This document shows, one piece after another, positions 1,100 through 63,376 of a stretch of 64,000 nt of DNA (position 1 is its first letter; the number at the start of each line of letters is the position of its first letter). The stretch comes from Massilia sp. H-1 (GTDB lineage Bacteria > Pseudomonadota > Gammaproteobacteria > Burkholderiales > Burkholderiaceae_D). The notes under the pieces are model-generated. The model was given only the letters and a program-made list of their open reading frames with translations. It was not told the DNA's origin and did no database searches. The stretch lies in NCBI GenBank assembly GCA_024703915.1, contig CP087969.1, positions 3,658,001 to 3,722,000 on the forward strand, in the 5' to 3' direction. The translations under genes and the position numbers were made by a program.

Positions 1100-2031
1100 T
1101 CAGACGGACGCTTTAGGGGCCATCAGGGAAGCCCAGCTTTTCGCGCGAGTCGTAATAGGCTTGCGCGACCAGGCGCGACAAGGTGCGCACGCGGCCGATG
1201 TAGGCGGCGCGTTCAGGTCACGGAAATGGCGCCGCGCGCGTCGAGCATGTTGAAGCTGTGCGACGCCTTCATGATCTGTTCGTAGGCTAGAGCAGCGTGA
1301 GCTGCAGCTCGATCAGGCGCTTGGCTTCCGATTCGTGATTGGCAGAATTGCGCAAACAGCAGATCGGTGTTGGCGTGTTCGAAGTTGTAGGTCGATTGCT
1401 CGACTTCGTTCTGGTGATACACGTCGCCGTAAGAAAGACGCTTGGTGACCGGGACAGCTTACCGCGCCGTTCTCTTCCCACTCAGTCCACACCAGGTCGT
1501 ACACGTTCTCGACGCCCTGCAGGTACATGGCCAGGCGTTCGATGCCGTAAGTGATTTCGCCGAGCACCGGTTTGCAATCGAGACCGCCCACTTGCTGGAA
1601 GTAGGTGAATTGCGTCACTTCCATGCCGTTGAGCCAGACTTCCCAGCCCAGGCCCCAGGCGCCCAGGGTCGGGCTTTCCCAGTCGTCTTCGACGAAACGC
1701 ACGTCATTCTTTTGCAGGTCCAGGCCCAGCGCGGCCAGCGAGCCGAGGTAGAGGTCGAGGATGTTTTCCGGCGCTTAAGCTTGAGCACCACCTGGTACTG
1801 GTAGTAGTGCTGCAGGCGGTTCCGGGTTCTCGCCGTAGCGGCCATCCTTGGGACGGCGCGATGGCTGCACATAGGCCGCGCGCCAGGGTTCCGGGCCGAT
1901 TGCGCGCAGGAAGGTGCCGGTGTGGAAGGTGCTTAGGCGCCGACTTCCATGTCGTAGGGCTGGAGCAGGGCGCAACCCTGCTTGTCCCAGTAGGATTGCA
2001 AGGTCAGGATAATTTGTTGGAATGTGAGCAT
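1100..2031 (-). CDS. glyQ: Glycine--tRNA ligase alpha subunit (frameshifted in this sequence)
   Basis: Catalytic alpha subunit of bacterial glycyl-tRNA synthetase, partner of GlyS. I chose the ATG at 2031-2029 ([20 protein letters not shown]) because it aligns with the family start; longer upstream starts add non-homologous sequence. Hallmarks are [29 protein letters not shown], the segment [20 protein letters not shown] and [12 protein letters not shown]. About 310 residues, normal length. GCCGGC-type breaks occur near 1935 (after DMEVGA), 1777 and 1272, with further slips near 1460 and 1120. The stop is TGA at 1102-1100, where the expected tail FPMAPKASV is reached after correcting one slip. 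Confidence 0.93.
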
Positions 2032-2137
2032 CTTGGGTAGCTGCCGCATGGGCGCGGGACAAAGTGAGTTTGCTAAAACGACCAATTTTAGCGGGTTTTG
2101 CAGCCAGACTGGGCCTGGCCGTGACAACTAAGTCACT

Positions 2138-3697
2138 TTAGCTAACTTTTTTTGCGTATTTGCGGCCGGAAAACCAGGCCGCAGCCATCGCCAGCGCCGC
2201 CAGCAGCAACATGGTGTAGTTGCCGAAACGGATGAACGGGGTCATGCCCCCCCACCCCTGGACGGTGGCCGCCAGCGTGCCCTGGGTGTAGTTGGGCAGG
2301 GCGCTGGCAATCTTGCCCTGGCTGTCGATCACGACCGTGGCGCCGCTGTTGGTCGAGCGCAGCATCGGGCGCCCGGTCTCCATCGAGCGCATCTGCGACA
2401 TTTGCACATGCTGGGGAATGGCCACCGATTCGCCGAACCAGGCCAGGTTCGACACGTTGAGCAGCATCGTGGCCGGGCGCGGCATGCTGCGCAGCTGGAG
2501 CGCGATTTCCTCGCCGAACACGTCTTCATAGCAGACATTGGGCAGGACCAGCTGGTCCTTGACCGGGAACGGAGCTTGCACTTCGGCGCCGCGCGTCATG
2601 TCGCCCAGCGGAATGCGCATCATGTCGACGAACCAGCGGAAACCGTTGGGCACGAACTCGCCGAACGGCACCAGGTGTTGCTTGTCGAAGCGGTAGTGCT
2701 GGCTTAGGCGGGCGAGAAACCGACCACGCTGTTGGCGTACGTGCCCGGCCCGTCGGTCAGGGGGATGCCGAACAGCATGTGGCTGTTGCTGCCCTTGGCG
2801 TACAGCTGCAGCGATTCAAGATAGTCGGGCGGCAAGTTGTGCGGCACGCGGGGAATGGCGGTTTCCGGCAGCGCGATCAGGTCAGGCTTACTCCTCGGTC
2901 GCCATCTTGTGATACAGGTCCAGCGTGCGTGCAAAGTGTTCGGGGTCGAATTTTTCCTGCTGGGCGATATTGCCCTGCAGCAGGCGTACCGTGATCGGTT
3001 GGCCTTGCGGCGTGGTCCAGTGCACGAAGCTGAGGCCGAAGCCGAGCGCCAGCGTGGCCGCCAGCACGCCCGCACCCAGCTTGCGCTTGCGCTGGGTCAG
3101 CAGGGCAAGGCAGCTGCCGCACAGGGCCGCCAGTACGCCGATGCCGTAGGCGCCGATCAGCGGCGCGTAGCCGCCCAAGGGACTGTTGTTGTGCGCGTAG
3201 CCGGACGAGACCCATGGGAAACCGGTCAGTACCCAGCCGCGCATCCATTCCGACAAGCCCCAGGCAAACGGCAGCACCAGCAACAGGAAACTCGTGACCG
3301 GCAGCGTGAAGCGCTTGCGCAGCCAGGTGGCCACGCCGGTGGCCAGCGCCGCGAACAGGCCCATGTAGGCGCCCAGCAGGCACACGGCGGCGACCGCCAT
3401 CGGGCCGGGAATGTGGCCGAAGCGGTTCATCGTGATGTACAGCCAGTGCATGCTTAGGCCACCGACCAGCCGAAGCCGAAGGCCCAGCCGATCAGGGTGC
3501 TGCGCCGGGTGCTGGTATCCATGCCGACCTGGTAGAACAGGAAGGCGAGGGACAGGATCTGGAGCGGCCACCAGCCGAACGGGGCGAACGAGAACACGCT
3601 GGCCGCGCTTGCAAGGGGGGCGGCGCACAGCATGGGCAGGGCAGTGGTACGCGGCGCGCGGCGCGCTCGCGTCAGGGGCAGGACGGCGACGCAGCAT
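2138..3697 (-). CDS. lnt: Apolipoprotein N-acyltransferase (frameshifted)
   Basis: Inner-membrane enzyme that transfers the third acyl chain to the N-terminal cysteine of lipoproteins. The N-terminal half is a set of hydrophobic helices (for example FSFAPFGWWPLQILSLAFLF, then MAVAAVCLLGAYMGLFAAL). The C-terminal half is a nitrilase-like domain with the glutamate in ALPETAIPR, the FDKQHLVPFGEFVP segment (catalytic Lys region) and the cysteine in LPNVCYEDVFGEE. About 519 residues, normal for the family. Frames break near 3660, 3455 (GCCGGC type), 2889 and 2704 (GCCGGC type). The start overlaps the corC stop as TGATG, so the two are translationally coupled. Confidence 0.92.
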
Positions 3698-4575
3698 CAG
3701 TCGCGTTCGTCTTCGGCCAGGGGCAGTTTTTCAACCAGCAGCACGTGGACCTGACGCGCTCGGCGCGCAGCACCTCAGAAGCGCAGGTTGCCCAGGTCGA
3801 ACAGGTCGCCCTTGTGCGGCATGCGGCCCAGGTGGTTGGCGACCAGGCCGCCGATGGTGTCGACGTCGTCTTCCGGCAGGTCGGTGCCGAGTTCCTCGTT
3901 GAACTGGGCGATCTCGGTCAGGGCCTTGATGCGCCAGCGCGGGCCGAGCTGGCCTTCCTTGATCGACAGGATGTTGTCTTCTTCCTCGTCGAAATCGTAT
4001 TCGTCTTCGATGTCGCCGACGATTTGCTCGAGCACGTCTTCGATGGTGATCAGGCTAAGCCACGCCGCTGTATTCGTCGACCACGATCGCCATGTGATTA
4101 TGGTTGGCGCGGAAGTCGCGCAGCAGCACGTTCAGGCGTTTCGATTCGGGGATGAAGATCGCCGGGCGCAGCATGTCGCGCACGTCGAACGATTCTTCGG
4201 CGTAGTAGCGCAGCAAGTCCTTGGCCAGCAGGATGCCGACCACCTTGTCGCGTTCGCCCTCGACGGCAGGGAAGCGCAGTGGGCCGTTTCCAGCACCTGG
4301 GGCATCCAGTCTTCGATGGGTTTGGAAATGTCGATCACGTCCATCTGCAGAGCGCGGCACCATGATGTCGCGGGCAGACAGATCCGACACCTGGAACACG
4401 CCTTCGATCATGGACAGCGCATCGGCGTCGATCAGGTTGCGTTCGTGGGCGTCGTGCAGAACTTCGAGCAGCTCGGCGCGGTTTTCGGGCTCGGGGAGAT
4501 CAGTGCGGTCAGGCGTTCAAACAGCGACCGGTGGGTTTTGGCGTCCGTGCGGACGTCATAAGAGTGCTCTGGCAT
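3697..4575 (-). CDS. corC: HlyC/CorC family CBS-domain transporter-associated protein (frameshifted)
   Basis: Cytoplasmic protein with tandem CBS domains (about residues 60-190, DIMVPRSQMDVIDISKPIE onward) followed by a CorC_HlyC domain ending in LVEKLPLAEDERD. This family is implicated in Mg/Co ion homeostasis, and the gene usually sits directly before lnt, as here. The ATG at 4575-4573 gives MPEHSYDVRTDAKTHRS. A GCCGGC-type break sits at 4054 (SGVAGLITIEDVLEQIVGDI is split), with slips near 4270, 4350 and 3775. About 292 residues. Because no membrane domain is present, this is the soluble CorC type rather than a full transporter. Confidence 0.9.
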
Positions 4576-4680
4576 AGTTGGCGTGAGCCGTTGTTGCGAT
4601 AGGCATAGAATACACTAAAAGCGGAATTGCCCGTTTTTTAAGCGGATTTGACAATACTTTCGGACGGGAAGCGTGCACGT

Positions 4681-4782: not shown

Positions 4783-6365
4783 CTAGGGGTGCACTTCATC
4801 CTGCAGCCCCGCCGCTGGCGGACCCGCCATCGGCGTGCTCAGCGTGGCGGCCGATAGCGGCCGGCGTGCCGGTCCGTGCAGCACCGCGCCGTCGGCGGCA
4901 AAGCGCGAGCCGTGGCACGGACAATCCCAGGATTTTTCGCCCGAATTCCAGTGCACGGCGCAGCCCAGGTGGGTGCAGGCCGCCGACACTGCCTGCAAGC
5001 CGCCGTCGTCGCTGCGGTAGACCGCCAGCAGCTTGCCGCCATCGCGCACCACCGCGCCTTCATGCTTAGCCACGATCTCGTCCACCGACTCCACATCGCC
5101 GCCCCGCAGCCAGTCGGTGTACTGGGCCAGGGTGTTGGCCTGCTCGGTGATGAAGTCGCCAATGCCGTGGAAAGCCTTGCGGGCCTGGCTGAATACAGCT
5201 CGGTCCAGTCGTTCGCGCGCCCCAAAATCAGGTCGCTGATCAGGATGGCGCCAACGTGCAGTGGGTCATGCCGTTGCCCGAGTCGCCAGTGATGATGTAG
5301 ACGTTGTCATGGTCGAGCGGATTGCGGCCCAGGAAGGCGACGCCGTCGGACGGCTCCATGACTTCGCCCGACCAGCGGTACTCGACCTCATCGGCCAGCG
5401 GGAAGCGCTGGCGCACCCAGGCTTCGATCTTGTCGTAGCGGTGCTGCGGATGGTCGTCCTGGCCAGTCTTGTGGTCCTGCCCGCCGACGATCAATAGTTC
5501 GTGGCTGACCCCGGGCAGGGCCGCGGCCAGCCGGATGTAGTAGTAGGGATCGCCCGTGTCCCACAGCAGCAGGCGCGGCAGCGCGTCTTTCGGCACGCGT
5601 GGCGACCACATAGGTGCGGTAGCCGGACTGCTTGGTGTGCATCACCACCCGGTCGTTGAACGGCGTGTTGGTGGCGACCACGACCGCGCCCGCGTGCACA
5701 TTGCCCGTTTCCGGTGCGCACGTGCGCGGTCTTGCTGTCGCCATGGATGTCGAGCCCGCGGGTCTGGCCGTAGATCCGCCCGCCCATGCGGGTGATGGCC
5801 GCCGCCAGGCCCGCCAGGTACTTGAGCGGATGGAACTGGGCCTGGTTGGCGAAGCGCAGGCAGGGGCCGGTGTCGAAGGACAGGCCGGGCACCCGTTCCA
5901 GACGGCGCACGTTCAGGCCCAGGCGGGTGGTGACGGCGTACTCGTGTTCGAGCGTGTCGTCCCAGCGGTGCTCCGGGCTGAACAGGTAGCCGTCCAGGCG
6001 CTCGAATTCGCACTCGATGCGTTCGCTGCGAATGATTGCTTCGACGCAGTCGGTGGCCTGGCGGTAGCTGTCGGCCACGAGGCCTTTGTCGGTGCCGAAG
6101 CCGCGCTCGATTTCGAAGAAGCGTTCGTCGGGCGGGAAGAAGTGGGCCGTGGTGCGCCCGGTCTCATGCGCGCCGACGCCAACGCGTCGATCACGACCAC
6201 GGATTTGCTTAGAGCGCAGCAGCATGTAGGCGGTGGTCAGGCCCGCGATGCTTAGGCGCCGATCACGCACACATCGGCGCGCTCGTCGCCTTTGAGGGGC
6301 GGGTAGTCGGGTACGGTGGCGGTGGCAAGCCACACGGATGTGGTGCCGGTCATTGCTGTTTTCAT
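4783..6365 (-). CDS. FAD-dependent oxidoreductase with C-terminal Rieske 2Fe-2S domain (frameshifted)
   Basis: Fusion of an amino-acid-oxidase-like (DAO) FAD domain and a Rieske domain. The N-terminus holds the dinucleotide-binding fold VCVIGAGIAGLTTAYMLL (about residues 30-47) and HETGRTTAHFF. The C-terminal 100 residues hold both Rieske boxes, CTHLGC and CPCHGS, which bind the 2Fe-2S cluster. The substrate is unknown; family members are annotated as glycine/D-amino-acid-oxidase-like. The start at 6365 is supported by the strong ribosome site AGGAGG just upstream. About 527 residues. GCCGGC-type breaks at 6251, 6206 and probably 5070, plus slips near 5720, 5600 and 5200, split it into several frames. 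It is transcribed alone. Confidence 0.85.
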
Positions 6366-6469: not shown

Positions 6470-7368
6470 TTACCCCGTGATGTAGGACGCGAGGCCGTCC
6501 GCAAGTGCGGCAAATACTACTGCGCATCGTTTGCTGTCGCGCAGATCTTCGTGCATGGCCAGCCAGGTATCGAGCTCGATCGAGAACAGGGCGGGCAGCA
6601 CGCGCACCAGCTGCGGATCGCGGCGCGCGATGCCTAAGCCTGGCACATGCCGATCCCGAAGCGACAGCGCGGATCGCGGCCAGCTGGGCCAGGTCGCTGT
6701 CCGAGCGCAGTGCGAACTCGGAGCGGGTCAGGTCACCCAGGTGATGCTTGAGACGGCGGATGAAGGCGCTCTCGTGATCGAAGCCGATCAGGGCGTGGTT
6801 GTGCAGCTCGGCCAGTGTGGTGGGCGTGCCGCGCCGCGCCAGATAGCTGCGGTGGGCGAACATGCCCACTTCGATGGCGCCGATGCGGCGCGCGACCAGC
6901 GCTTCCTGGGCCGGACGCAGCATGCGCACGGCAATGTCGGCTTCGCGCCGCAGCAAGTCTTGCGGGCGGTTGCTGACCGCCAGCTCGATTTGCAGCTGCG
7001 GATACTGTTCATGCAAGCGCGCCAGGATGGGCGGCAGCACTTCGCAGCCGACCGCCTCGCTGGCGGTAATGCGCACCGTGCCGCGCGCTTCGTCGCCGTG
7101 GCTGGATGCGGCGCGCAGCAGGGCGGCGGCGGTCGCGGCCAGGGCCTGGGCATAGGGCTTGAGCTGCAGGGCTTGCTCGGTGGGCAGGTAGCCGAGCTGG
7201 GAGCGCACGAACAGGGCGTAGCCGAGCTTGGATTCGAGCGCGTCGATATGGCGGCCCAGGGTTGGCTGGGCCAGGCCGAGCTCGCGCGCGGGCGGCCGAC
7301 AGCGAGCCGGCTTCCAGCACGGCCAGGAAGGAGCGGTACAGGTCCCAGCCGGGTTCGGCGCTGTCCAT
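6470..7368 (-). CDS. LysR-family transcriptional regulator (frameshifted)
   Basis: N-terminal winged helix-turn-helix (SLSAAARELGLAQPTLGRHI region, broken by a slip near 7295) followed by a LysR substrate-binding domain (VRITASEAVGCEVLPPILA onward). About 299 residues. I chose the ATG at 7368 (MDSAEPGWDLYRSFLAVLE), which gives the usual 15-20 residues ahead of the HTH. A GCCGGC-type break at 6636 precedes the tail, which ends at TAA 6472-6470. It is divergent from the NmrA-like gene 104 bp away, the common LysR arrangement, so that gene is its likely target. The inducer cannot be told from sequence. Confidence 0.87.
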
Positions 7369-7472: not shown

Positions 7473-8411
7473 ATGAAAACAGCACTGGTACTGGGCGCGA
7501 CGGGCGGCGTGGGCGGCGAAGTGGCGCGCGCCCTGGTGGCGGCAGGATGGCGGGTGCGGGCGCTGGTGCGCGATCCGGTCCGGGCGCCCGCCATCGACGG
7601 GGTGGAATGGATCGTCGATGACGCGATGGAGCGGGCTTGACGTTGTCGATGCCGCCCGCGGCGCGGCGCTGATCGTGCACGCGGTCAATCCGCCCGGCTA
7701 CCGCAACTGGGGCACGCTGGTGCTGCCGATGATCGACAACACGATCGCCGCCGCGCAGGCCAGCGGCGCGCGGGTGCTGCTGCCGGGCACTATCTACAAC
7801 TACGGTGCTTAAGCACCGGACCGGTGCTGAGCGAAACGACGGCACAGCAGCCCTCGTCGCGCAAGGGAGCGATCCGGGTCGAGATGGAACGCCGCCTGCG
7901 GGCTTCCGGCGTGCGCGCCTGGTGGTGCGGGCTAGGCGACTTTTTCGGACCGCGGCCCGGCAACAACTGGTTCTCGCAAGGGCTGGTCAAGCCGGGGCGG
8001 GCGGTGGTGACGACGCCGGGCGATACCGGCGTCGGCCACGCCTGGGCTTATCTGCCCGATCTGGCCGACACGATGGTGCGGCTGGTGGAGCGCGAAGCGA
8101 GTCTGGCGGCCTTCGAGACCTTCCATTTCCGGGGACACTGGGATAGCGACGGCAGCGGCATGGCCGAGGCCATCGTCCGCGCCTCGGGCAACCCCGCGAT
8201 GAAGGTCAAGAAGCTGCCGTGGGCGCTGTTATGGCTGGCCGCGCCGTTCGTGACGATGCTGCGCGAGATGCAGGAAATGCGCTATCTGTGGCGCGAACCG
8301 TTCGCGCTCGACAACGCCAAGCTGGTGCGCCTGCTGGGTCATGAGACCCACACCCCGCTCGACCAGGCGGTGCGGGCGGCGCTGGCGGGCATGGGCATGG
8401 CCGCCGCGTGA
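7473..8411 (+). CDS. NmrA-like / atypical SDR NAD(P)-binding protein (frameshifted)
   Basis: Rossmann-fold protein with the nucleotide-binding motif GATGGVGGEVARAL at residues 8-21 and an N-terminus MKTALVLGATGG typical of atypical short-chain dehydrogenases. Later features are LLPGTIYNYG and AGDFFGPRPGNNWFSQ, common in NAD-dependent epimerase/reductase relatives. About 312 residues. A ribosome site AAGGAGG at 7462-7468 supports the start. GCCGGC-type breaks occur at 7807 and 7930, with slips near 7636 and 7920. Substrate unknown; probably controlled by the divergent LysR protein. Confidence 0.83.
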
Positions 8412-8416
8412 GGCAT

Positions 8417-10854: not shown

Positions 10855-10908
10855 CGGCACGGGCATGCTTAGGCCAGGCCGCGCATGCCGGTACCAGCAG
10901 GCCGCTGA

Positions 10909-12270: not shown

Positions 12271-13868
12271 ATGTTCAGTATTCAAAATCGGCTCAAACTG
12301 CTGTTTGTGGTGATCGTCACGCTGGTGCTGGCCATTTCCGGCAGCTATACCCAGTATTCGCTCGGCAAGGACCTCGAGGCCAGCAACCAGCGCTTGCGCC
12401 AGGGGTGCTGACGCGCCTTCAGATCAGTCTGCCTTCCGCCCTGTGGGATCTCGACAAGTCCAAGGTCGACAGCATTGTCGAAGCCGAAATGCTGCCGCCC
12501 GAAGTGGTGTCCATCCGCGTCTACGATACCTCGGTCGGCCTGTTCAGCCTAAGCAAGCTGCGCGCCTCCACCGGCCAATTGGTCGCGGTCGACCAGGCCC
12601 CCGAGCCACTTGCACACCCCGGTCGAAGCGACCCTCGTGTTCCAGGATGGCGGCTCGGCCAGCGCCTCGATCAAGCCGGTCTCGGTCGGCAAAGTGGTCA
12701 TCAATTTCTCGCGCGCCCAGATCGACGCCGCCCTCGCGTCCGAACTGATGCGCAAAGTGGCCGAAGTGCTGCTGCTCGATATTTTCCTGGTGCTGGCGCT
12801 GTCGCTGTCGCTGCGCATGGTGTTCGAGCCGCTCAAGCAATTGCGTGACGGCTTGTTCGACCTGGCCACGCGCGGCACCGACGACGTCGAGGAATTGCCC
12901 GAGAACCGGCGCGACGAACTGGGCGACGTGATCCGCGGCTTCAACCAGATCCAGCGCCGCCTCAAGTCGACCATTCTGCGGATACGCGAAGCCGAAGATG
13001 CGGCGCGCCGCTCGGCCCAGCAAACGGCCCAGGCCCTGACCGATCTGCGCCAGACCCAGGAGTCGCTGCTGCAGGCAGAACGCCTGGCCTCGCTCGGTAG
13101 TCTGGTGGCCGGGGTCGCCCACGAAATCAATACCCCGGTCGGCATCGCGCTGACCAGCGCCTCGGTGCTCAAGACGGCCACCGATGAAATCCAGGTGGCG
13201 GTCAACACCACCGGCCTGAAAAAATCCGACATCATGCGCTACCTCGATACGGCCAACGAGAGCGCGCCTGATCATGAACAATGCCTACCGCGCGGCCCAC
13301 CTGATCCACAGCTTCAAGCAGATCGCGGTCGACCAGACCAGCGAGGCGCGGCGGCCGTTCGGGCTGAAAGAATATATCGAGGAAATCGTCTCCAGCCTGC
13401 AGCCCAAGCTGAAGAAGACGCCGATCCGGCTGGTGCTCAGCTGCCCGCCCGAGATCGTGCTCGACAGCTACCCGGGCGCGTTTGCCCAGGTCATCACCAA
13501 CCTCACCCTCAATTGCTGCGAGCACGCGTTCGAAGTCGATACGCCGGGCGAGATCCAGATCACGGCCCGCCTCGACGGCGAGATCGTCGAACTGCATGTC
13601 AAGGATGACGGCAAGGGGATCGCGCCCGATGTGCTGGACCGCATCTTCGATCCCTTCTTTACCACGCGGCGCGGGCAGGGCGGCACCGGACTCGGCCTGA
13701 ACATTGTTTTACAACCTGATTGCCAAGCAATTCGGCGGGACGATTGCGGTGGCCAGCACGCTCGGACAAGGCACCCATTTCACGCTGCGCATTCCGCGCG
13801 TCACGCCGCAAGATGCGGGCGCCGATCCGCAGCCGGTCACGGTGGTGGCGCCCGGCACCGGGGTTTGA
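12271..13868 (+). CDS. Membrane sensor histidine kinase (frameshifted)
   Basis: Two-component sensor. There is an N-terminal membrane helix ([20 protein letters not shown]), a periplasmic sensory segment, a second helix ([19 protein letters not shown], about residue 170), a HAMP-like linker, a coiled stretch, the phosphoacceptor box GVAHEINTP, and an ATPase domain with N box ([11 protein letters not shown]), DDGKGI and GGTGLGLN. About 532 residues, no receiver domain. The ATG at 12271 follows a TGGAGG ribosome site. Breaks are near 12405, 12605, 13266 (loss of a CG unit) and 13708. No response regulator is adjacent; divergence from the HDOD pair suggests that link. Confidence 0.86.
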
Positions 13869-13989: not shown

Positions 13990-14604
13990 ATGAAACTCTA
14001 TTTCAGCCCCGGCGCCTGCTCCCTGTCTCCCCATATCGTCCTGCGCGAATCGGGACTGGCGTTCACGACGGAGAAAGTGGATTTGCGCAGCAAGCTCACA
14101 GTAAGCGGCGCCGACTATCGCGCCATCAATCCGAAGGGCTACGTGCTTAAGCGCTGGAAACCGACGAAGGCGTGCTGCTGACCGAAGGTCCGGCCATCGT
14201 CCAGTACGTGGCCGACAAGGCAGCCAAACCAGGGGCCTGGCAGCCACTGCCATCGCAGCAGCATCGCGCCTACCAGCTGATCGAGTGGCTCAATTTCATT
14301 TCGACCGAAGTGCACAAGAATTACAGTCCGCTGTTCAATCCCGCCGCCAGCGAGGACATGAAGGCGGCCGCGCGACGGCCTCAACAAGCGCTATGCTTAC
14401 CTGGACGGCATCCTGGCCCAGCGCGACTTTTTGCTGGGCGACCAGTTCAGCGTGGCCGACGCCTATTTGTTTGTGGTGACCAACTGGGCCCGGCTGGTCA
14501 AGCTGGACCTGGCGTCCTATCCCCACGTGCAAGCGTTCCATGCCCGGGTTGGCGCGCGCCCGGCAGTGCAGGATGCACTGCGCGCCGAAGGCCTCATTGA
14601 TTAA
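13990..14604 (+). CDS. gstA: Glutathione S-transferase, beta-class GstA-like (frameshifted)
   Basis: Conjugates or transfers glutathione; cytoplasmic. The N-terminus [20 protein letters not shown] has the beta-class active-site region including Cys10, and the thioredoxin-like domain continues through the Pro-containing GYVPALETDEG and [10 protein letters not shown]. The all-helical C-terminal domain includes [17 protein letters not shown]. 204 residues, the usual size. A GCCGGC-type break at 14147 and loss of one CG unit near 14374 split it. It is followed 20 bp later by the metallo-beta-lactamase-fold gene, so the two may share a transcript. Confidence 0.9.
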
Positions 14605-24129: not shown

Positions 24130-24464
24130 ATGGACAACACGCTGACGGACGGACTGCTGGCCCCCATCGAGATCGCCCAGGTTCCCGGACGCGATCTGTT
24201 TGTCGTCGCCAAATACCTGATCCCCACGAATGCCTATCTGGCGCAGGGCTGCCTGGTCGCGGCCTAAGCATTCCTGCCGTGGTGGCCGATGCCAACCATG
24301 CGCAGGCCGACCTGCTCATCTCGCCCGCCATGGGCGGCGTGCGGGTGCTGGTGCCCGAGGCGCACATCGCGCAGTCGCAGGCGGTGCTGGAGGCGCTGGC
24401 GCGCGGCGACTTCGCGCTCGACGACGATGCCGATGTCGGCGCATCCGACGAATTCTTCCCATGA
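24130..24464 (+). CDS. DUF2007-type small protein (frameshifted)
   Basis: About 111 residues. The core KYLIPTNAYLAQGCLVAAGI, followed by PAVVADANHAQADLL and GGVRVLVPEAHIAQSQAVLE, matches the putative signal-transducing DUF2007 domain that occurs widely in proteobacteria; function not established. A GCCGGC-type break at 24266 splits VAAGIPAVV. I chose the ATG at 24130 over an upstream in-frame start. It may be the last gene of the acyl-CoA operon, 51 bp after it. Confidence 0.78.
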
Positions 24465-39232: not shown

Positions 39233-39273
39233 CTGTGAATTATATCGCCTGCACCCCTGCTCCAGAGCAAACC

Positions 39274-43069: not shown

Positions 43070-43071
43070 GG

Positions 43072-49263: not shown

Positions 49264-50254
49264 ATGAAAATCAAATCGCTGGCCCTGGTTTGCGCCATGG
49301 CTCTCAGTGTGAATGCCTGGGCGCAAGCGCCGATCGTTATCAAGTTCAGCCACGTGGTGGCGCTTGATACACCCAAGGGCCAGGCGGCGGAACGGTTCAA
49401 GACGCTGGCGGAAAAGGCGACCAACGGCCGGGTCAAGGTCGAGGTCTATCCTAACAGCCAGCTGTACAAGGACAAAGAAGAGCTCGAAGCGCTGCAGCTG
49501 GGCGCGGTCCAGATGCTGGCGCCCTCGCTGGCCAAGTTCGGTCCCCTGGGCGTGAAAGAATTCGAAGTCTTCGATCTGCCTTACCTGTTTGCCGACAAGC
49601 AGGCGCTGTACCGCGTGACGGAAGGCCCGGTCGGCAAGGGCTTGCTGCAAAAACTCGATGCAAAGGGCATCACCGGGCTGGCGTACTGGGACAATGGCTT
49701 CAAGGTCATGTCCGCCAATAAACCGCTGAACGTGCTTAAGCCGACTTCAAGGGCCAGAAGCTGCGGATCCAGGCATCCAAGGTGCTCGATGCCCAGATGC
49801 GCGCTGGGCGCCAATCCGCAGGTGCTGGCCTTCTCCGAGGTCTACCAGGCGCTGCAGACCGGCGTGGTGGACGGCACCGAGAATCCGCCATCGAACATGT
49901 ACACCCAGAAAATGCACGAGGTGCAAAAGTATGTGACGGTGTCGAACCACGGCTACCTCGGCTATGCGGTCATCGTGAACAAGAAGTTCTGGGATGGCTT
50001 GTAGAGCCGACATACGCGCCAGCCTGTCCAAGGCCATGGCCGAAGCGACCATCTATGAAAAGGCGATCGCCCAGCGCGACAACGACCTGGCCATGGAAGC
50101 GATCAAGAAAACCGGCAAGACCACGATCCACATCCAGACGCCGCAGGAACAGGCCGAGTGGCGCAAGGCGCTGCTGCCGGTCTACAAGGACATGGAAGGA
50201 CGGATCGGCAAGGACTTGCTGGCTTCCTTCATCAAGGCATCGTCCGGTAAATAA
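49264..50254 (+). CDS. dctP: TRAP transporter substrate-binding protein DctP (frameshifted)
   Basis: Periplasmic solute-binding protein for C4-dicarboxylate-like acids. Signal peptide MKIKSLALVCAMALSVNAWA, then VIKFSHVVALDTPKGQAAER, LEALQLGAVQMLAPSLAKFG, LAYWDNGFKVMSANKPLNV, VLAFSEVYQALQTGVVDGTE and NPPSNMYTQKMHEVQKYVTV. 330 residues. GCCGGC-type breaks at 49735 and about 50000. Start of a three-gene dctPQM operon. Confidence 0.94.
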
Positions 50255-50338: not shown

Positions 50339-50890
50339 ATGAAAATTCTCGATCACCTGGAAGAGTGGCTGATCGCCACCCTCATGGGTGCGGCCACGCT
50401 GGTGGTGTTCGTGGCGGTGGTGCACCGCTACCTGTCCGGCCTGGCCATTCCCGGCGTGCAGGATTACCTGATCAGTCTGAATACCAGCTGGGCCCAGGAA
50501 TTGTGCATTTTCATGTTCATCTGGATGGCCAAGTTCGGCGCCGCATATGGCGTGCGGACCGGCATCCACGTTGGCGTCGATGTGCTGATCAACCGCATGA
50601 ATCCGCGCTGGCGCGGCCGCTTCGTGATCTTCGGCTTGCTGGCCGGGGCCGTGTTCACCGGCGTGATCGGTGCCCTCGGCGCCTACATGATCAGCCATCT
50701 GTCGCCCGACCAGACCTCGGAAGTGCTGGAAATCCAGATGCGCTGGGTCTATCTGTGCGTGCCGCTCGGTTCCTGGCTGATGTGTTTCCGCTTCCTGCAA
50801 GTGATGGTGCAATTCATCCGCAGCGGCGATCTGCCGCACCACGACCACGCTTATGTCGAGGGACTTGACGACGAGCTTGCCGACGCCTAG
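50339..50890 (+). CDS. dctQ: TRAP transporter small permease DctQ
   Basis: Intact 183-residue membrane protein with four helices (WLIATLMGAATLVVFVAVVH, ELCIFMFIWMAKFGAAYGVR, FVIFGLLAGAVFTGVIGALG and WVYLCVPLGSWLMCFRFLQV) and the IHVGVDVL motif. Joins DctM and anchors the complex. Starts 84 bp after dctP and ends 15 bp before dctM. Confidence 0.94.
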   Translation: MKILDHLEEWLIATLMGAATLVVFVAVVHRYLSGLAIPGVQDYLISLNTSWAQELCIFMFIWMAKFGAAYGVRTGIHVGVDVLINRMNPRWRGRFVIFGLLAGAVFTGVIGALGAYMISHLSPDQTSEVLEIQMRWVYLCVPLGSWLMCFRFLQVMVQFIRSGDLPHHDHAYVEGLDDELADA

Positions 50891-50905
50891 CAAGGGAGTG
50901 CGCCC

Positions 50906-52194
50906 ATGAACGCCGCCATCATTTTTGTCCTGCTGCTGTTGTTGATGCTGACAGGCATGCCGATTTCGATTTCGCTCGGCCTGACCGTGCTCGTGTTTTT
51001 CGCCACCATGACCAGCGTGTCGCCGGAAGCGGTGGCGCTCAAGCTGTTCTCGGGCATCGAAAAGTTCGAGATCATGGCGATTCCCTTCTTTATATTGGCG
51101 GGCAATTTCCTGACCCATGGCGGGGTGGCCAGACGGATGATCAATTTCGCCACCGCCATGGTCGGCCACTGGCACGGCGGGCTGGCGCTGGCTAGGCGTG
51201 CTCGCTTGCGCGCTGTTTGCGGCGGTGTCGGGCTCGAGCCCGGCCACGGTGGTGGCGATCGGTTCGATCATCCTGCTTAAGCCATGATGCGCCAGGGCTA
51301 TCCGAAAAACTTCGGCGCCAAGCGTGATCACGACCTCGGGCGCGCTCGGAATCCTGGTTCCGCCGTCGATCGTGATGGTGATGTACTCCGTCACCACCAA
51401 TACCTCGGTCGGCCAGCTGTTCATGGTCGAAGCGTGGTGCCGGGCTTGCTGCTGGCCTTCTTCCTGGGCCTGACGACCTGGTTCCTGGCGCGCAAGCATA
51501 ACTATCCGCGCATGCAGAAGGCGACCTGGGGCGAGCGCTGGACCACCTTCCGCAAGAGCGTCTGGGGATTGATGCTGATCGTGGTGGTGATGGGCGGTAT
51601 TTACAGCGGCAAGTTCACGCCGACCAGAAGCGGCGGCCATGGCCGCGGTGTACGCCTTCTTCATTGCCGTGTTCGTGTACAAGGACCTCAAGCTCAAGCA
51701 GATCGGCAAGGTGCTGCTCGATTCGGCCTCGCTGTCGGCCATGCTGCTGTACATCATCACGAACGCGATGCTGTTCTCCTTCCTGATGACCAGCGAGAAC
51801 ATTCCGCAGGCGATGGCGGCCTGGATCACGGGGCAGGGCATGGGCGTGGTCAGCTTCCTGCTGGTGGTCAATGTCCTGCTGCTCATGGCTTAGCAATTTC
51901 ATGGAACCGTCCTCGATCGTGCTGATCATGGCGCCGATTTTGTTCCCGGTGGCCATGAAGCTCGGCATCGATCCGGTCCACTTCGGGATCCTGATTGTCG
52001 TCAATATGGAAGTCGGGATGTGCCACCCGCCGGTGGGCCTGAACCTGTACGTGGCGTCCGGGATTACCAAGATGGGGATTTCGGAGCTGACCGTGGCGGT
52101 ACTGCCATGGCTGCTGACCATGCTGGCCTTCCTGGTGCTTGTCACCTTCGTACCACAAATTTCGCTGTGGCTGCCCAATTTGATTTACAACTGA
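50906..52194 (+). CDS. dctM: TRAP transporter large permease DctM (frameshifted)
   Basis: Large membrane subunit that moves substrate with sodium. Conserved: MTGMPISISLGL-like opening, EIMAIPFFILAGNFLTHGGV, FAAVSGSSPATVVAIGSIIL, YSGKFTPTEAAAMAAVYAF, LLLMAGNFMEPSSIVLIMAP and VNMEVGMCHPPVGLNLYVAS. About 429 residues, 12 or so helices. GCCGGC-type breaks at 51193, 51275 and 51893, and slips near 51325, 51430 and 51628. Last gene of dctPQM. Confidence 0.93.
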
Positions 52195-52505: not shown

Positions 52506-53031
52506 ATGAAGACAGAGCAAGCGAGACCCATTTTTTCCGCCATCGTGGGCGCGCCGTTTGGCGCCATCGGCATCCGCACCGAAGCGGGGCTTGTCCGCGA
52601 ACTGGTCTACCTGCCGCCCCATTTTAGTGAAAAGGATGCAGCAGACCCTGTTGCAAACGCAGCAGCCGAACAGGTCGCGCGCTACCTGGCCGATGCCGAT
52701 TTCCCTTTCGATTTGCCGCTGGCCGCGGCTTAAGCAGCGATTTCCAGCGCCGCGTGTGGGCCGCCATTTCCGCCATTCCGCGCGGCACGGTGCGCACCTA
52801 CGGCCAGGTCGCCAAGCACATCGGCTCGGCGCCGCGCGCGTGGGCCAGGCTTGCGGCGCCAACTGGTTCCCGCTGGTCATTCCCTGCCACCGCGTCACCG
52901 CCTCGGGCGGACTGGGCGGCTTTTCCAATCACGATGATGAAAACGGCTTTCACCTGAGCGTCAAGCGCTGGCTGCTGGCTCACGAAGGCGTCAATACTTC
53001 CCCATGGCAGCAGCAATCAATCTTCGGCTGA
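52506..53031 (+). CDS. ogt: Methylated-DNA--protein-cysteine methyltransferase Ogt/MGMT (frameshifted)
   Basis: Suicide repair protein that removes O6-alkyl from guanine. The active-site Cys is in VIPCHRVTASGGLGGFSN; QRRVWAAISAIPRGTVRTYG is the HTH region; NGFHLSVKRWLLAHEG ends it. 175 residues. GCCGGC-type break at 52730 (LAAAGSDFQRRVW) and a slip near 52843. Its 3' end overlaps xerD by 28 bp. Confidence 0.93.
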
Positions 53032-54219: not shown

Positions 54220-54240
54220 CGTTTCGCCGCCTACTGCCGC

Positions 54241-57200
54241 TTAGGCGACTTCCGAGCTTCTTGTCTTCTTCGACCAGTGCCGCGTGCGGCTCATCGGCGC
54301 CGCGGAAGTACTTGGCGACCTTCTTGCCCCAGTTGTCCATGTAGGTGTAGGCCACCGGCACCACCACCAGCGTGAGCAGAGTGGAGGTGATCACGCCGCC
54401 GATCACGGCGCGGCCCATCGGCGCCTGCTGCTCGCCGCCGTCGCCCAGGCCGATCGCCATCGGCAGCATGCCGAAGATCATGGCCAGCGTGGTCATCAGG
54501 ATCGGACGCAGACGCACCTGGCCCGCTTCCATGATGGCCTCGACCTGGCTCTTGCCTTCGCGCTGGCCGTGGTTGGTGAAGTCGACCAGCAGAATCGCGT
54601 TCTTGGTCACCAGGCCCATCAGCATGACGATGCCGATCACCGAGAAGATATTCAGCGTGCTGCCCGTGATCAAGAGCGCCAGCAAGACCCCGATCATCGA
54701 CAGCGGCAGCGATACCATGATCGCGATCGGCTGCAGGAAGCTGCCGAACTGCGAGGCCAGCACCAGGTAGATGAAGATCACGGCAATGCCAAGCGCGGTA
54801 CCGGCTGCGCCCAGGGTCTCGGCCATCTGCTCGGCTTCGCCGCCGACGGCCATGCGTACGCCTTCCGGCAATTCGATGCTCTTGATCGCCTTTTGCACGT
54901 CGTCATTGACGTCGCCGTTCGGGCGGCCTTCGACAGCCGAGCATAGATCGCCACGCGGCGTTCCAGCGCCTGGCGCTTGAGCACTTGCGGGCTGGTCGAC
55001 GGGACGAAGTCGACCACCTGGCGCAGCGGGACCATGATCGGGTTGCTTATGGGCATCGACCTTGCTCGAGGCGACCGACAGGTCGGCCAGGTCGGCTACC
55101 TTCTGGCGGCCCGACTTCGGCAACTGCACGTTGACGTCGTAGTTCTGTCCGTCCGGCGCCAGCCAGCGGCTGATCTGGTCGCCTGCCACGAAGGGACGCA
55201 GCGCGCTGCCGACCTGCTGCACCGAGATGCCCATGTCGCTGGCCAGCTCGTTGTTGATCTTGACGATGGTGGCCGGATTGGCGCCTTCCTGGCTGTATTC
55301 GATGTCGGCCACGCCCTTGATGGTGCGCATCTTGTCCATCATCTTGCGTGCCACGGCGTCCAGCTTGCCTTCGTCCTGGCCCAGGATGCCGATGTAGATC
55401 GGCTTCCAGCCCACCGACAGGATGATGCTTAGAACGATCGGTTGCAGACGCTCGCGGATGGCCGCTTCGAGTTCCTTCTGCGAACGGCGGTGGGTCAGCT
55501 TGCGGTCGCTCAGGGTCAGGTTGACCTGGGCGGCATTGCAGCCATCCCAGGTGCTAGGCGGTGGCGACCGCCGCTTCGATTTCCTTGAAGTCCTTGAGGG
55601 CCGCTTCAACTTGCTTGAGCTTGCTGTCCGTGTAGTCGAGGCTCGATCCGACCGCGGTCTTGAATTGCAGGTGGATGAAGCCCTGGTCGGTCTCGGGGAA
55701 CATTTCGCCGCCGATGATCGGCATCAGAGCCAGGCTGCCGATGAACGAGGCCAGTGCCAGCGTCAGCGTGGCCTTGCGCCAGTTCAGCGCGATTGCCAGG
55801 ATCTTGCCGTACCAGACGTGCATGCGCTCGATGCCGTGCTCGATCTTTTCCATCAGCTTGCCCAGCCATGGCACGTACTTGAAACGGTCCTTGACCGGAT
55901 CGCGCCACACCGACGAGAGCATCGGGTCGAGCGTGAAGCTGACGAACAGCGACACCAGCACCGCGACCGCCACGGTAATGCCGAACTGCAGGAAGAAGCG
56001 GCCGATGATGCCTTCCATGAAGGCCACCGGCACGAACACGGCCACGATGGCGAAGGTGGTGGCCATCACGGCCATGCCGATTTCGTTGGTGCCGTCATAC
56101 GCGGCTTGCAGGTGGCTCTTGCCCATCGCCAGGTGGCGCACGATGTTTTCACGCACCACGATCGCATCGTCGATGAGCAGACCGATGCACAGCGACAGCG
56201 CCATCAGGGTCAGGAAGTTGAGCGTGAAGCCGAAGTATTTCATGGCGATGAAGCTGGCCATGACCGAGATCGGCAGGGTGAGGCCGGTGATGATGGTGCT
56301 GCGCCAGGAATGCAGGAACAGGAACACGATCAGCATGGTCAGCAGCGCGCCTTCCATGATGGTGCGCTTGACGTTGTCGAGCTGGCTCTGCACGCGCACC
56401 GACTCATCCTTGAGGATGGTGATCTTGACGTCGGTAAGCAGGGTTTCGCGCAGCTTGGCGATGGCTTTCTTGATGCCATTGCCCACTTCGACCACGTTGG
56501 CATCCTGAATCTTGCCGATTTCCAGGGAGATGGCGCGCTTGCCGTTCAGGCGCGAGATCGATTGTTCTTCCTGCTCGCCGTCGACAATGTCGGCCACTTG
56601 TTCCAGGTACACGGGACCGCTGGCGCGGCGCGCCACGATGATCTTGTTGAAGCCGCGTGCATCCTTGATCTTGCCTTCGACCCGCACCAGGCGCTCGCTG
56701 GCGCCGAACGAGATGTTACCGGCTAGGCAGATTGGCGTTGGTGGCCTGAATTGCACGCAGCACTTCGTCCACGCCGACCGACAGGCTTAGGCCAGGGCGT
56801 CCGGCTTCATGTTGACCAGGATCTGGCGGTTGGTCTTGCCGTTGATGCGGATCTGGCCGACAGCCTAGCCACGCCCTGCATGCGCTTGCTGATTACTTGC
56901 TCGGTCAGGGTCGACAGTTCACGCAGGCTGCGCGTGTCCGATTGCAGCGAGATATCGACGATCGACTGCGCGTTCTCACCCTCGAAGCGGATGATGAACG
57001 GTTCCTTGGCATCCTTGGGGAAGCTCGGACGCACGCGCGCAATCTTGTCGCGCAGGTCGGTCATCGCCTTGTCCATATTGGTCGACAGCTCGAATTCGAC
57101 CGACAGGGCGCCGCGCCCTTCCCAGGAACTGGCCATGATCTTCTTGACGCCCGACACGGTGTTGACCGCGTCTTCGAGTGGCCGCGTGATGTCGTTTTCC

Positions 57201-57376: not shown

Positions 57377-57379
57377 GGC

Positions 57380-58608
57380 TTAGCCTTTCTTGGCGACCAG
57401 CGCGACGTCTGCGACCGGTGCCACGGGCGCGCCAGCCATGCGCACTTTCGTGCCCGGTTTGACGCCGTCGAGCTTGCCGAGCACCAGGCGGGCGCCATTA
57501 CCAGGCCTTCGGTCACTTCGACCATGCCTTCGTCTTCATTGCGCATGCCGAGCTTGACCGGCTGCGAGACGACCTTGCCGTCTTCGATCTTGTAGACCAC
57601 GTCGGCTTCCTTGTCCTTGCGCAGCGCGGCCACCGGCACCAGCGGGCGCACGGCCGACTTGCTGGTGGTCAGCTGGCCCTTGGCAAACATGCCGCCCGAG
57701 AGCGCGTGGTCGGCATTGTTCACACTAATATAGACCAGCATCGAGCGCGAACCGGCTTCGGCGGTCGGATTGATGCGCGACCTTGCCGGTAAAGCTGCGG
57801 CCTAAGCAAAACCGTCGACCTTGAATTGCACGTCCTGGCCGATTTTTACGCTGCGGAATTTCGGACGCTTAAGCACCTGGGCTTCGAGCGTCATCTGGCG
57901 CAGATCGACGATGGTAAATACGGGCATGTCGGGCGCCAGCTTTTCAGCCTAAGCCTGCACGTGGCGGCGGCTGATCACGCTTAGCCATCGGGGCGCGGAT
58001 CGCGGTGTCGTTGAGGGCGATGCGGGCCAGCTGCACCAGCGCCTGCTGGGCCTTGACGCTGGCCTGGGCCAGGTCGACCGAGTTCTGGGTGGCATCGAAG
58101 GATTGCTGCGAAATGTAGTTCTGCTTGAGCAGGGCCTGGCTGTTCTGGCTGTTCTTGACCGCCAGCGCCAGGCGGGCCGTCGCTTCGTCGAGCATGGCTT
58201 GCTGCTGCGCCAGGCGGGCGGCCTGGTCGGCCTGGTCGAGGCGGGCCAGGACCTGGCCGGCGCTCACGCTGGTGCCTTCGCGCAGATTGGCATCGAGCAC
58301 CACGCCCGACACCTTGGATTTGACGGTGGCCTGGGCCAGTGGCGTGAGCGAACCCGACAGTGGCAAGTTCATGCTGAGGGCGCGCGCTTCGACCGCGACC
58401 ACATCGCCTTTTGACAACTCGTACACGAGCTTGGCCGCGCTGTCCTCCTTGGCTGCCGCCGGGGCTTAAGGCTTTCTTTGGCGATTGCATGACATACCAG
58501 CCATGGCTGCATGAGCGCCAGGACGACCGCACCGATCACTGGTGCACGCCAGCGTTTCTTGGAAACGGTGGGCTGGGCTGGGGCGCGGGGCAGGGTCTCT
58601 AGTTTCAT
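57380..58608 (-). CDS. RND efflux periplasmic adaptor protein (frameshifted)
   Basis: Membrane-fusion protein linking the RND pump to an outer-membrane channel. N-terminal anchor/signal (RWRAPVIGAVVLALMQPWLV), lipoyl/barrel-sandwich region SKVSGVVLDANLREGTSVSA, helical hairpin (QAARLAQQQAMLDEATARLA to QNSVDLAQASVKAQQALVQL), then IRAPMAGVISRRHVQAGEKL and the beta-barrel (GQDVQFKVDGFAGRSFTGKV). About 409 residues. GCCGGC-type breaks at 57980, 57949, 57870 and 57803; slips near 58450 and 57500. Lies 3 bp upstream of the pump gene, so one operon. Confidence 0.91.
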
Positions 58609-61397: not shown

Positions 61398-62353
61398 GTC
61401 CGCGCGTCTCGTCGAACAGGCGGATGCGCGCCAGCACCTGCCCGTGGTCGGAGGCGGCTAAGCAGTGCCAGCACCACGTGGTCGTTCAGGTAGACCACGT
61501 CGATCACTTCCCCGATCGCGTTCGGCAGCGCCGGATTGAATTCTTCCGACACCAGAATATGGTCGATGGTCGTGTAGCTGCCGTCGTGCATGATCGAGAA
61601 GCCCACGTGGCGCAGATGGTCCTGGCGCTGCTGCAGCTGGCAGGCATCGAACAGGCGGCCCGACATGGCCGTGCCATTGCCCATGACGATGGTGGTGGAG
61701 ACGGCGTCGGCCACATCATTGAAGTCGCCCAGCACCACCTGCGGCCGCCGGTTCTGTTTGGCCATGGTGGTCAGCAGCACGCGCAGCGCGACCGCCTCGG
61801 TGCCGCGCCGCACCAGCGAGCGCAGGCAGGCCAGGCCGAACAGCAAGGGATCTTCGGGACTGTCGCCGTTGCGGTAATCGGGCCGCTTCGACTTGAGGTG
61901 GACGACCACGACGTCGACCACGCAGTCGGGCGAGACCGCAATGGCGGCGTGAACCAGCGCGCGAAAAGGTGCTTAAGCCTCGCGGCTGCCGTCCGGCATG
62001 GCCACGCCGTCGGGAAAGGCCGCGTGCAGCGCGCCCGGCGCGGCCAGCGGCAGGCGCGACACCAGCGCCACCGATGGCGTGAGACGCTCGGCGCCGGGAT
62101 CGGGATCGAAACCGACATGGGTCGCGTCGCGGTACAGGCGGGTGCGGGCCAGCGCCGCGCGCAGCGCCGCCTGCGAGAAAATCTCCTGGAAACCGATCAC
62201 GTCGGCGTCGAGCAGGTCGATCTGGCGCGCCGTCCAGTCCAGCTTTGCCTCGTACTCGGCCTCGGTCAGCGGCAGCAGATTGTCGTACAGCTGCTGCCCG
62301 GCCGGGGCGAGGTTGAACGCATTGAAGGTGGCAAAGCGGATTTCTTGCTGCAT
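61384..62353 (-). CDS. Endonuclease/exonuclease/phosphatase-family protein (frameshifted)
   Basis: EEP-fold metal hydrolase: RFATFNAFNLAPAGQQLY, DVIGFQEIFSQAALRAALA (catalytic Glu), VVHLKSKRPDYRNGD, VVLGDFNDVADAV (GDFND) and TIDHILVSEEFNPAL (DH). About 323 residues, no signal peptide, so probably intracellular; substrate could be DNA, RNA or phosphoesters. GCCGGC-type breaks at 61976 and 61458, a slip near 61905. Its end overlaps the GGDEF-EAL gene end tail to tail; the final residues are uncertain because the stop sits in a GCTTAGAGC context. Confidence 0.88.
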
Positions 62354-62390
62354 AATAAGAAGCTCCTTATTGAATGTTTAGCGTATCACG

Positions 62391-62882
62391 ATGGCCAAGA
62401 AAGAGCACATTTCCGAGACCCCGGCGACCCAGTTCCTGCGCAAGCAGGCCGTGGACTTCAGCGAGCATCCGTATGCGTATGAAGAAAAGGGCGGCACCAA
62501 GGTGTCGGCGCGCGAGCTCGGCGTGCCCGAACATGAGGTCGTCAAGACCCTGATCATGCAGGATGAGGCGGCCCGTCCGCTGATCGTCCTCATGCATGGT
62601 GACTGCAAGGTGTCGACCAAGAATCTGGCGCGCGCGATCGGCTGCAAATCGGTCGAGCCGTGCAAGCCTGAAGTAGCCCAGCGCCATTCCGGCTACCAGG
62701 TGGGCGGCACCTCGCCGTTCGGCACGCGCAAGGCGCTGCCCGTGTATGTCGAGGAAAGCATCCTGGGGCTGGACAAGATCTATATCAATGGCGGACGGCG
62801 CGGCTATCTGATCGGCATCGCCCCGCAGGTGCTGGTCGCGCAACTGGGCGCCAAGCCCGTCAGCTGCGCGCTGGCCGAGTAA
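62391..62882 (+). CDS. ybaK: YbaK/EbsC-type aminoacyl-tRNA deacylase
   Basis: Intact 163-residue protein. HEHAYEYEEKG-like start (SEHPYAYEEKGGTKVSAREL), VVKTLIMQDEAARPLIVLM, CKVSTKNLARAIGCKSVEPC and YQVGGTSPFGTRKALPVYVE match the YbaK (Cys-tRNA-Pro editing) fold. RBS spacing is short. Unbroken. Confidence 0.92.
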   Translation: MAKKEHISETPATQFLRKQAVDFSEHPYAYEEKGGTKVSARELGVPEHEVVKTLIMQDEAARPLIVLMHGDCKVSTKNLARAIGCKSVEPCKPEVAQRHSGYQVGGTSPFGTRKALPVYVEESILGLDKIYINGGRRGYLIGIAPQVLVAQLGAKPVSCALAE

Positions 62883-62885
62883 GCA

Positions 62886-63376
62886 ATGAAGCTGGCCACC
62901 ATCAGCGGCTGCGGCACCTGGCGCTACCGCCTCGAGCGTGCCGTGGCGCCGCAGGGCCCGGTGTTTGCCTATTTTGGCGTCAATGGTTCGACCGCCACGG
63001 CGAGCGAGGATGACCACACGGTGCGCAAGTGGATTGGTTTTACCGAGCGCAATGGCGGCAGCCGCTTCATCGTCGGCAATGCCTTCGCTTTCCGCGCCAC
63101 CGACGTGCGCGAACTGGCGCAGGCCAGCGACCCGGTCGGGCCGCGCAACCGGCGCCATCTCGCCAACATCATTGCCGAAGCCGACATCCTGGTGCCGTGC
63201 TGGGGCAGCCGCGGCAAGTTGCCGCAGCGCTTGCACGGCCAGCTCGACGCCCTGCGCGAACAACTCTTTGAGGGCTAAGCAAGCCGGTGCGCATCTGGGG
63301 CTTGTCGCAGTCGGGCGACCCCTTGCATCCTTTGACACTCGCGTACCGCTTGCCCTTGGTGGAATGGGTCAGGTAA
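62886..63376 (+). CDS. DUF1643-family protein (frameshifted once)
   Basis: About 163 residues: GCGTWRYRLERAV, LVPCWGSRGKLPQRLHG, then, after correcting a GCCGGC-type break at 63276, AGKPVRIWGLSQSGDPLHPL and YRLPLVEWVR. DUF1643 proteins have an 'LGxTKxGxPxHPL' tail, matched by LSQSGDPLHPL. Function not established. Starts 4 bp after ybaK, so one transcript. Confidence 0.82.

Follow-up and report, generated by a model that had tools for sequence, protein, structure and literature searches.

Altered GCCGGC sites in the genome assembly of Massilia sp. H-1: probable misreading of a motif modified by a NaeI-type system

The window considered here is a stretch of 64 kb (C1:3658001-3722000) from the assembly of Massilia sp. 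H-1, a genome held in one contig of 5,836,689 bases. It contains 67 short words that resemble lengthened copies of the hexamer GCCGGC, 40 of them two bases longer and 27 one base longer, where about 4 would be expected per 64 kb at the rate of same-genus relatives; 16 intact GCCGGC sites are left. These words are the eight listed forms GCYTARGC (four words), GCTAGGC, GCCTAGC, GCTAAGC and GCTTAGC. All of them retain GC at both ends and have TA either between the two central letters, C and G, or over them, and seven of the eight are also without the central C or G. It is very probable that a NaeI-type restriction-modification system encoded elsewhere on the contig modifies the GCCGGC sites of this organism through its C5-cytosine methyltransferase, that these sites were misread in sequencing, and that most GCYTARGC-like words are assembly artefacts. 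The initial annotation had spoken of about 60 places at which GCCGGC is replaced with the addition of one or two bases, and in its core this holds: of the 67 forms, 53 have an aligned counterpart in one or more of four relatives, and 38 of these 53 lie opposite GCCGGC. Each of the 29 positions that it named has a listed form within about 15 bases; 24 of them align to at least one of the four relatives, and 19 of the 24 stand opposite GCCGGC in at least one.

Besides the window, 420 kb of the same genome was sampled (2 kb overlap), and the 462 kb sample used below is the window together with 398 kb. The four same-genus relatives contribute 400, 120, 120 and 100 kb, a total of 740 kb. For depletion, a hexamer had to be counted 20 times or more in every relative; for excess, 40 times or more here. 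Only GCCGGC is strongly depleted: its 159 sites correspond to 0.19 times the level of the lowest relative, and the hexamer that follows it stands at 0.52 times; its density is 0.34 per kb in the 462 kb sample and 2.02 per kb in the relatives. The hexamers most over-represented are CTTAAG, CTAAGC, CCTAAG, TAAGCA and GCTTAA. The eight listed forms occur 506 times in the 462 kb and 48 times in the 740 kb of the relatives. GCCGAGC, which had been named with them, is barely enriched (1.6 times the relatives' rate, with GCTCGGC at 1.3 times), and the occurrences of these two words are mostly ordinary DNA. In the whole genome there are 3380 GCYTARGC, and GCTTAAGC alone is found 1773 times in 5.84 Mb; none of the 398 other genomes in the sample of the order has more than 147. 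That maximum belongs to a genome of 2.3 Mb (G192) with 308 GCYTARGC, which is much for its size.

The base in front of the site affects how often it is found altered: the ratios of intact sites to listed forms are 43:354 after T, 94:394 after G, 121:168 after C and 60:96 after A. Two other palindromes, ACCGGT and TCGCGA, are flagged as low by Markov expectation alone; for ACCGGT that expectation is inflated because the loss of GCCGGC alters the CCGG counts, and against the relatives only GCCGGC stands out. A reverse-pattern control, CGAATTCG, is not neutral in the genus and was left out as an expectation. The 23S rRNA genes were tried as a functional control, and no conserved GCCGGC site was seen there; the relatives' 23S rRNA loci naturally carry GCTAAGC, GCTTAGGC and kin, so that some of the forms are genuine elsewhere and this control tests nothing.

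Alignment to relatives permits the fate of individual sites to be followed. The nearest relative (G006) was chosen by one gene; a stretch of 22,054 bases in it is identical in Massilia sp. CF038, and it goes by that name below. Its 215 GCCGGC sites with good flanks are read here as 11 intact (5%), 36 GCYTARGC, 24 listed one-base-longer forms, 47 other changes of length and 97 changes at equal length, and the length is frame-changing at 102 of them (47%). For other palindromes with at least 10 sites each, pooled in the same alignment, 1524 of 2848 sites are intact and 233 are frame-changing. When relatives are compared with each other, frame changes fall to 8 of 611 and 4 of 2020 in the palindrome pools, and GCCGGC changes in length at 4 of 127 and 4 of 240 sites. 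Errors thus concentrate on GCCGGC far beyond motifs of like composition. If its true conservation is like that of the other palindromes, about 115 of the 215 sites would be expected intact, which suggests that about nine in ten GCCGGC sites are misread; the drop in density from 2.02 to 0.34 per kb would put the figure at about eight in ten. Random 8-mers given the same test as the window's forms lie opposite GCCGGC in 147 of 3471 covered cases. Conversely, of the 103 window sites that have GCCGGC in at least two of the four relatives, 6 are intact, 23 have a listed form, 25 another length change and 49 a change at the same length; for the 41 sites with GCCGGC in at least three relatives the numbers are 3, 10, 12 and 16.

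A likely source of the modification lies elsewhere on the contig. The initial annotation had predicted a methyltransferase for GCCGGC, and when the genome was searched, the sole PF00145 C5-cytosine methyltransferase gene found was at C1:3045936-3046978 on the minus strand, in two frames (E-values of 1.5e-47 and 4.9e-11 on the two pieces). Divergent from it are a Vsr endonuclease gene (L148:7218-7622; TIGR00632, 3.2e-39) and a gene for a NaeI-family endonuclease, also in two frames (L148:7702-8490 and 8198-8518; PF09126, 8.6e-48 and 1e-12), the first piece of which matches NaeI itself in the PDB (1ev7/1iaw, 7.5e-26). The three genes are clustered at C1:3045936-3048518 (L148:5936-8518). NaeI recognizes GCCGGC (PMC7653180); a review prints the site as GCC|CCG (PMC4081073), which looks like a slip. 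The specificity of the methyltransferase for GCCGGC would follow from that of its neighbour. The genome-wide profile searches covered PF00145 and PF01555 for the maker of the modification and PF09015 and PF09126 for its partner. The NgoMIV family (PF09015), for which the NgoMIV-type site is also GCCGGC, gave a best match of E 0.27 genome-wide, below the cut-off. One N6/N4 methyltransferase gene of family PF01555 is present at C1:2924431-2925039; it is nearest to adenine methyltransferases, and no error signature was linked to it.

The locus is likely to have been acquired, judging from its low G+C (50%, compared with 55% in the 20 kb surroundings and 64% in the window) and from a search of 16 other genomes of the genus, none of which has the NaeI family. 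The present genome is the only carrier among the 17 of the genus and, among the 399 sampled from the order, the only one over the cut-off, a second genome having a match below it; the search of relatives was made with the NaeI family. At each of the five other NaeI loci examined, in three genomes and on two plasmids, both methyltransferase pieces find a match in a methyltransferase close by, with identities of 52-55% and 38-50% to the two pieces here. One of the five, on Rhodococcus opacus plasmid pROB02, also has a Vsr gene, and an HNH gene lies there between the NaeI gene and the methyltransferase. Some 1.6 kb beyond the far side of the Massilia methyltransferase is a gene named JetA (DUF3375) in PADLOC, in four overlapping pieces (L148:2857-4329, C1:3042857-3044329). 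JetA/DUF3375 is presumably a Wadjet component, so the NaeI-type locus would sit in a defence neighbourhood. The pROB02 locus is near a DrmB-type gene. NaeI systems appear to sit among other defence genes.

The mechanism that we favour runs as follows. The living chromosome would carry GCCGGC at the altered words, and the C5-cytosine methyltransferase belonging to the NaeI-type system at C1:3045936-3048518 would modify both strands there. The base caller of a single-molecule platform would then meet a base outside its training and would write TA either between the central C and G or over them at about eight to nine in ten sites, with T for C and/or A for G in most forms and a word grown by one or two bases. 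The shortened homopolymers and (CG)n runs make nanopore the most likely platform. The loss of a central base and the TA at the centre indicate base 3 of each strand, and the shape of the listed forms thus suggests 5-methylcytosine (m5C) at that position. Other NaeI carriers show no comparable excess of the forms: GCYTARGC numbers 109, 19 and 50 in the 4.2, 3.7 and 2.5 Mb of three NaeI-bearing genomes (G524, G777 and G639) found among 398 sampled from the phylum. Merely carrying the system does not alter a deposited sequence; how the genome was read therefore matters, and the forms look like read artefacts. The proposal of systematic misreading at a modified site is thus supported by the depletion of GCCGGC, its replacement by the listed forms and the NaeI-type locus, whereas the methylation, its exact base and the activity of the predicted enzyme are presumed from sequence. 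If the reading is right, many genes that are broken on paper are probably intact in the cell.

Several observations weigh against this interpretation or limit its reach. Against CF038, the window has 158 frame-changing insertions or deletions (indels) with good flanks, and GCCGGC or a listed form is present at only 46 of them (29%; 48 with wider forms), the relative having GCCGGC at 29, only the window side showing a listed form at 17, and the wider forms accounting for 2. Among the rest, 23 are (CG)n runs that have been shortened and 12 are homopolymer changes, with 75 others. In a region of 302 kb (226 kb aligned), 613 indels divide in a similar listing into 115 with GCCGGC in the relative, 72 with a listed form only, 13 with wider forms, 75 shortened (CG)n, 61 homopolymer changes and 277 others; a looser filter places 256 of 853 frame-changing indels at GCCGGC or its forms. 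The hexamer is the largest single cause of frameshifts found, at about 30%, and not the majority, and the initial claim that it explains most of the broken reading frames goes too far. Frame-changing indels reach 2.72 per aligned kb here and 0.31 and 0.47 in the relative-to-relative controls, where none is at GCCGGC with this filter and 1 of 86 and 0 of 63 are with the looser one. The shortening of (CG)n runs and homopolymers in the 302 kb region constitutes a second error class. It dominates the remaining indels in a search for a second modified motif; CTGAAG, considered as such, is frame-changing at 7 of its 83 sites (six with an added letter) and CTCGAA at 11 of its 118 (ten with an added letter), too few for full modification.

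In addition, 15 of the 53 covered forms in the window are opposite no GCCGGC in any aligned relative, and two of the three asymmetric pairs of forms lean to one orientation in the 462 kb sample, which a symmetric site alone would not predict. GCTTAGC and GCTAAGC number 104:53 (p 6e-5) and GCTTAGGC and GCCTAAGC 71:44 (p 0.015); GCTAGGC and GCCTAGC are at 34:44, so that the equal effect on both strands that had been described is true only roughly. A preference of the consensus caller could produce such a skew. At 1.0, 3.6 and 5.0 Mb the first pair stands at 26:7, 64:37 and 14:9, the same lean at all three, and the third at 6:15, 23:22 and 5:7. The genes of the locus raise difficulties of their own. 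Methyltransferase and endonuclease are each split into two frames in the assembly, and no GCCGGC or listed form lies within the locus; these breaks therefore need another error or are real. Set against CF038, however, the assembly has 2.7 frame-changing indels for every aligned kb. The best PADLOC models for the methyltransferase are those of Druantia DruM (5.7e-111), followed by type II methyltransferases (2.1e-92), and since the DruM models score ahead, the family name alone fixes neither a type II role nor a site. Finally, in the pilin loci of Neisseria gonorrhoeae nanopore data gave m5C calls at 32 of the 33 GCCGGC sites, in passages that mention no misreading of GCCGGC (PMC12871193). Plain m5C thus need not give gross errors, and an older caller or another modification would be needed for errors as gross as those here. 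The NaeI-type locus of this lineage might make, or finish making, a cytosine that differs from m5C or is modified beyond it, and this would explain additions of one or two bases at a hexamer where m5C can be called elsewhere; we regard it as distinctly improbable.

The modified GCCGGC might also be misread as proposed and yet owe its modification to some other maker than the NaeI-linked C5 enzyme, for instance one that leaves N4-methylcytosine or a bulkier base. The grossness of the errors, which include two-base insertions, would suit such a base, the NaeI-linked methyltransferase reads as split, and the searches for makers and partners were confined to the four families given above. The genome nevertheless yielded just one gene of PF00145 and one of PF01555, the latter nearest to adenine enzymes, and the former adjoins an endonuclease of a family with this very site, so that a different maker seems unlikely. 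A weakness of the caller in GC-rich palindromes, with no DNA modification at all, would make GCCGGC merely a hard context for the platform. Other such contexts do suffer, frame changes being present at 64 of 270 CGCGCG, 79 of 366 GCGCGC and 22 of 158 CGGCCG sites, and shortened (CG)n and homopolymer changes together make up 136 of the 613 frame-changing indels noted above. However, these three hexamers stay intact at 61, 60 and 41% of sites, compared with 5% for GCCGGC, which moreover gains letters containing TA. With looser flanks, GGCGCC, of equal composition, has 42 length changes and 167 intact sites out of 425, where GCCGGC has 179 and 17 out of 387. No other of the 399 genomes from the order comes near 1773 GCTTAAGC (the next has 147), and the genome that stands apart is the sole one with a NaeI-family gene over the cut-off. 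A purely contextual weakness is thus very unlikely.

The altered words could instead be real sequence, GCCGGC having been replaced through selection against the site, mutation of m5C or gene decay. Deamination of m5C removes such sites in general. In samples of the three other NaeI-bearing genomes (L159-L170) GCCGGC is at about half the Markov expectation (33 against 68, 31 against 62 and 12 against 23, one of the samples being shorter than 20 kb), and the one-base-longer forms reach 12 and 15 per 100 kb in two of them, compared with 3-6 in the same-genus relatives. There may therefore be mild real avoidance of GCCGGC in NaeI carriers. Avoidance and deamination, however, yield substitutions and not insertions of one or two bases against relatives, and the GCYTARGC counts of those genomes are far from the 3380 found here. 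With 2.02 GCCGGC per kb in the relatives, the 1.44 per kb reached here by intact sites and listed forms together is about 70%, so most sites persist under another spelling. Real replacement on the scale observed is scarcely credible.

Misreading of a modified GCCGGC would be a known kind of error, since motif-bound modification errors occur in nanopore assemblies, in a new and unusually clean instance marked by frame-breaking insertions; it is not a new kind of system. In Listeria monocytogenes, nanopore assemblies contain modification-mediated errors at GCAGC and GCTGG (PMC10687267). There, as here, a single short motif collects the errors, the lineages concerned possess their own modification system, and assemblies that are otherwise good are spoiled. 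The Listeria errors are described as mismatches, whereas those at GCCGGC are mostly frame-breaking insertions of one or two bases, and here the assembly by itself suffices to name a candidate source system. In Klebsiella pneumoniae and other species, nanopore errors induced by methylation have the minimal motif RA/TY, which no methylation motif in the literature fitted (PMC11610573). They share with the present case a strand-dependent confusion of pyrimidines or of purines at motif positions, and differ in being two-base ambiguities and not insertions.

The hexamer itself is a known target of methylation. A table for Aeromonas hydrophila NEB724 gives GCCGGC (3) (PMC8565308), which we read as m5C at base 3, a position that fits the C-to-T and G-to-A changes here, and M.NgoAIV of N. 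gonorrhoeae also makes m5C at this site (PMC12871193); unlike the present assembly, neither source, in the parts that concern the motif, reports that the site is misread. Among the matches listed in the literature on nanopore errors, methylation and NaeI/GCCGGC, no report of GCCGGC misreading was apparent. As in the NaeI type II system (1ev7, 1iaw), a NaeI-family endonuclease gene lies close to that of a C5-cytosine methyltransferase, and the Vsr gene is shared with the pROB02 locus. In contrast to the known NaeI system, both enzyme genes appear split in this assembly and the system is a predicted one.

A finished assembly can thus, without raw signal, reveal a modified motif of the host and point to its restriction-modification system; here the motif came first and the NaeI-type locus afterwards. 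The word signature, GCYTARGC and its shorter kin alongside missing GCCGGC, could be used to screen assemblies made from long reads only. The case is also a warning, since this public genome will give false pseudogenes and false absences: its completeness is 48.22% despite a single contig of 5.84 Mb, compared with 81-100% for the other 16 same-genus genomes.

The forms in the window are collected in Table 1.

Table 1. Putative misread and misread-type forms of GCCGGC in the window. The last column gives the relatives with GCCGGC over the relatives aligned.
Predicted feature	Position in window	Position in initial annotation	Relatives with GCCGGC
misread form	994..1001		3/4
misread form	1773..1780		2/4
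misread form	1931..1938	1935	1/4
misread-type form	2702..2709	2704	0/4
misread form	3452..3459		3/4
misread form	4054..4060	4054	2/4
misread-type form	5064..5070		0/2
misread form	6250..6257		2/2
misread form	6632..6639		1/1
misread-type form	7807..7814	7807	0/1
misread-type form	7931..7937		0/1
misread-type form	10867..10874		0/4
misread form	12547..12554		2/4
misread form	14145..14152	14147	1/4
misread-type form	17198..17204		0/4
misread-type form	18320..18326		0/3
misread-type form	18612..18618		0/3
misread form	19643..19650		2/2
misread-type form	20329..20336	20333	0/4
misread form	20723..20730	20723	3/4
misread form	21413..21420	21417	3/4
misread form	24262..24269	24266	2/4
misread-type form	25916..25922		none aligned
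misread form	26901..26908	26901	1/2
misread-type form	27949..27955	27954	0/2
misread-type form	29912..29919	29917	none aligned
misread-type form	31459..31466	31463	none aligned
misread-type form	31772..31779		none aligned
misread-type form	32259..32266		none aligned
misread-type form	32421..32428	32422	none aligned
misread-type form	32473..32480		none aligned
misread-type form	32824..32830		none aligned
misread-type form	33020..33026		none aligned
misread-type form	33369..33375	33368	none aligned
misread-type form	33599..33606		none aligned
misread-type form	33742..33749		none aligned
misread form	35343..35349	35347	1/4
misread form	35444..35450		2/4
misread form	40105..40111	40108	1/4
misread form	40629..40636	40626	2/4
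misread-type form	42269..42275		0/4
misread form	43258..43265	43259	3/4
misread form	44356..44363		3/4
misread form	44406..44413	44408	1/4
misread form	44805..44811		3/4
misread form	45503..45510	45507	2/4
misread form	47691..47697		1/3
misread form	48074..48081		2/3
misread form	49734..49741	49735	1/3
misread-type form	50885..50891		0/3
misread form	51191..51197	51193	1/3
misread form	51275..51282		2/3
misread form	51888..51894	51893	1/3
misread form	52728..52735	52730	1/4
misread-type form	54239..54246		none aligned
misread form	55553..55559		1/4
misread form	56722..56728	56724	4/4
misread-type form	56785..56792		0/4
misread form	56863..56869		1/4
misread-type form	57378..57384		0/4
misread form	57800..57807	57803	1/4
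misread form	57867..57874		4/4
misread form	57947..57954		3/4
misread form	57979..57985		2/4
misread form	61457..61463		1/4
misread-type form	61971..61978	61976	0/4
misread-type form	63274..63280	63276	none aligned

Eleven of the misread-type forms fall between 29912 and 33749, a stretch that aligned to none of the regions fetched from the relatives; it is perhaps a lineage-specific segment, affected like the rest. At 39270-39348 the window also contains a repeat of about 80 bases, which we take to be like a REP/BIME element; the present genome and that of Massilia sp. CF038 have many copies of it, in either orientation.

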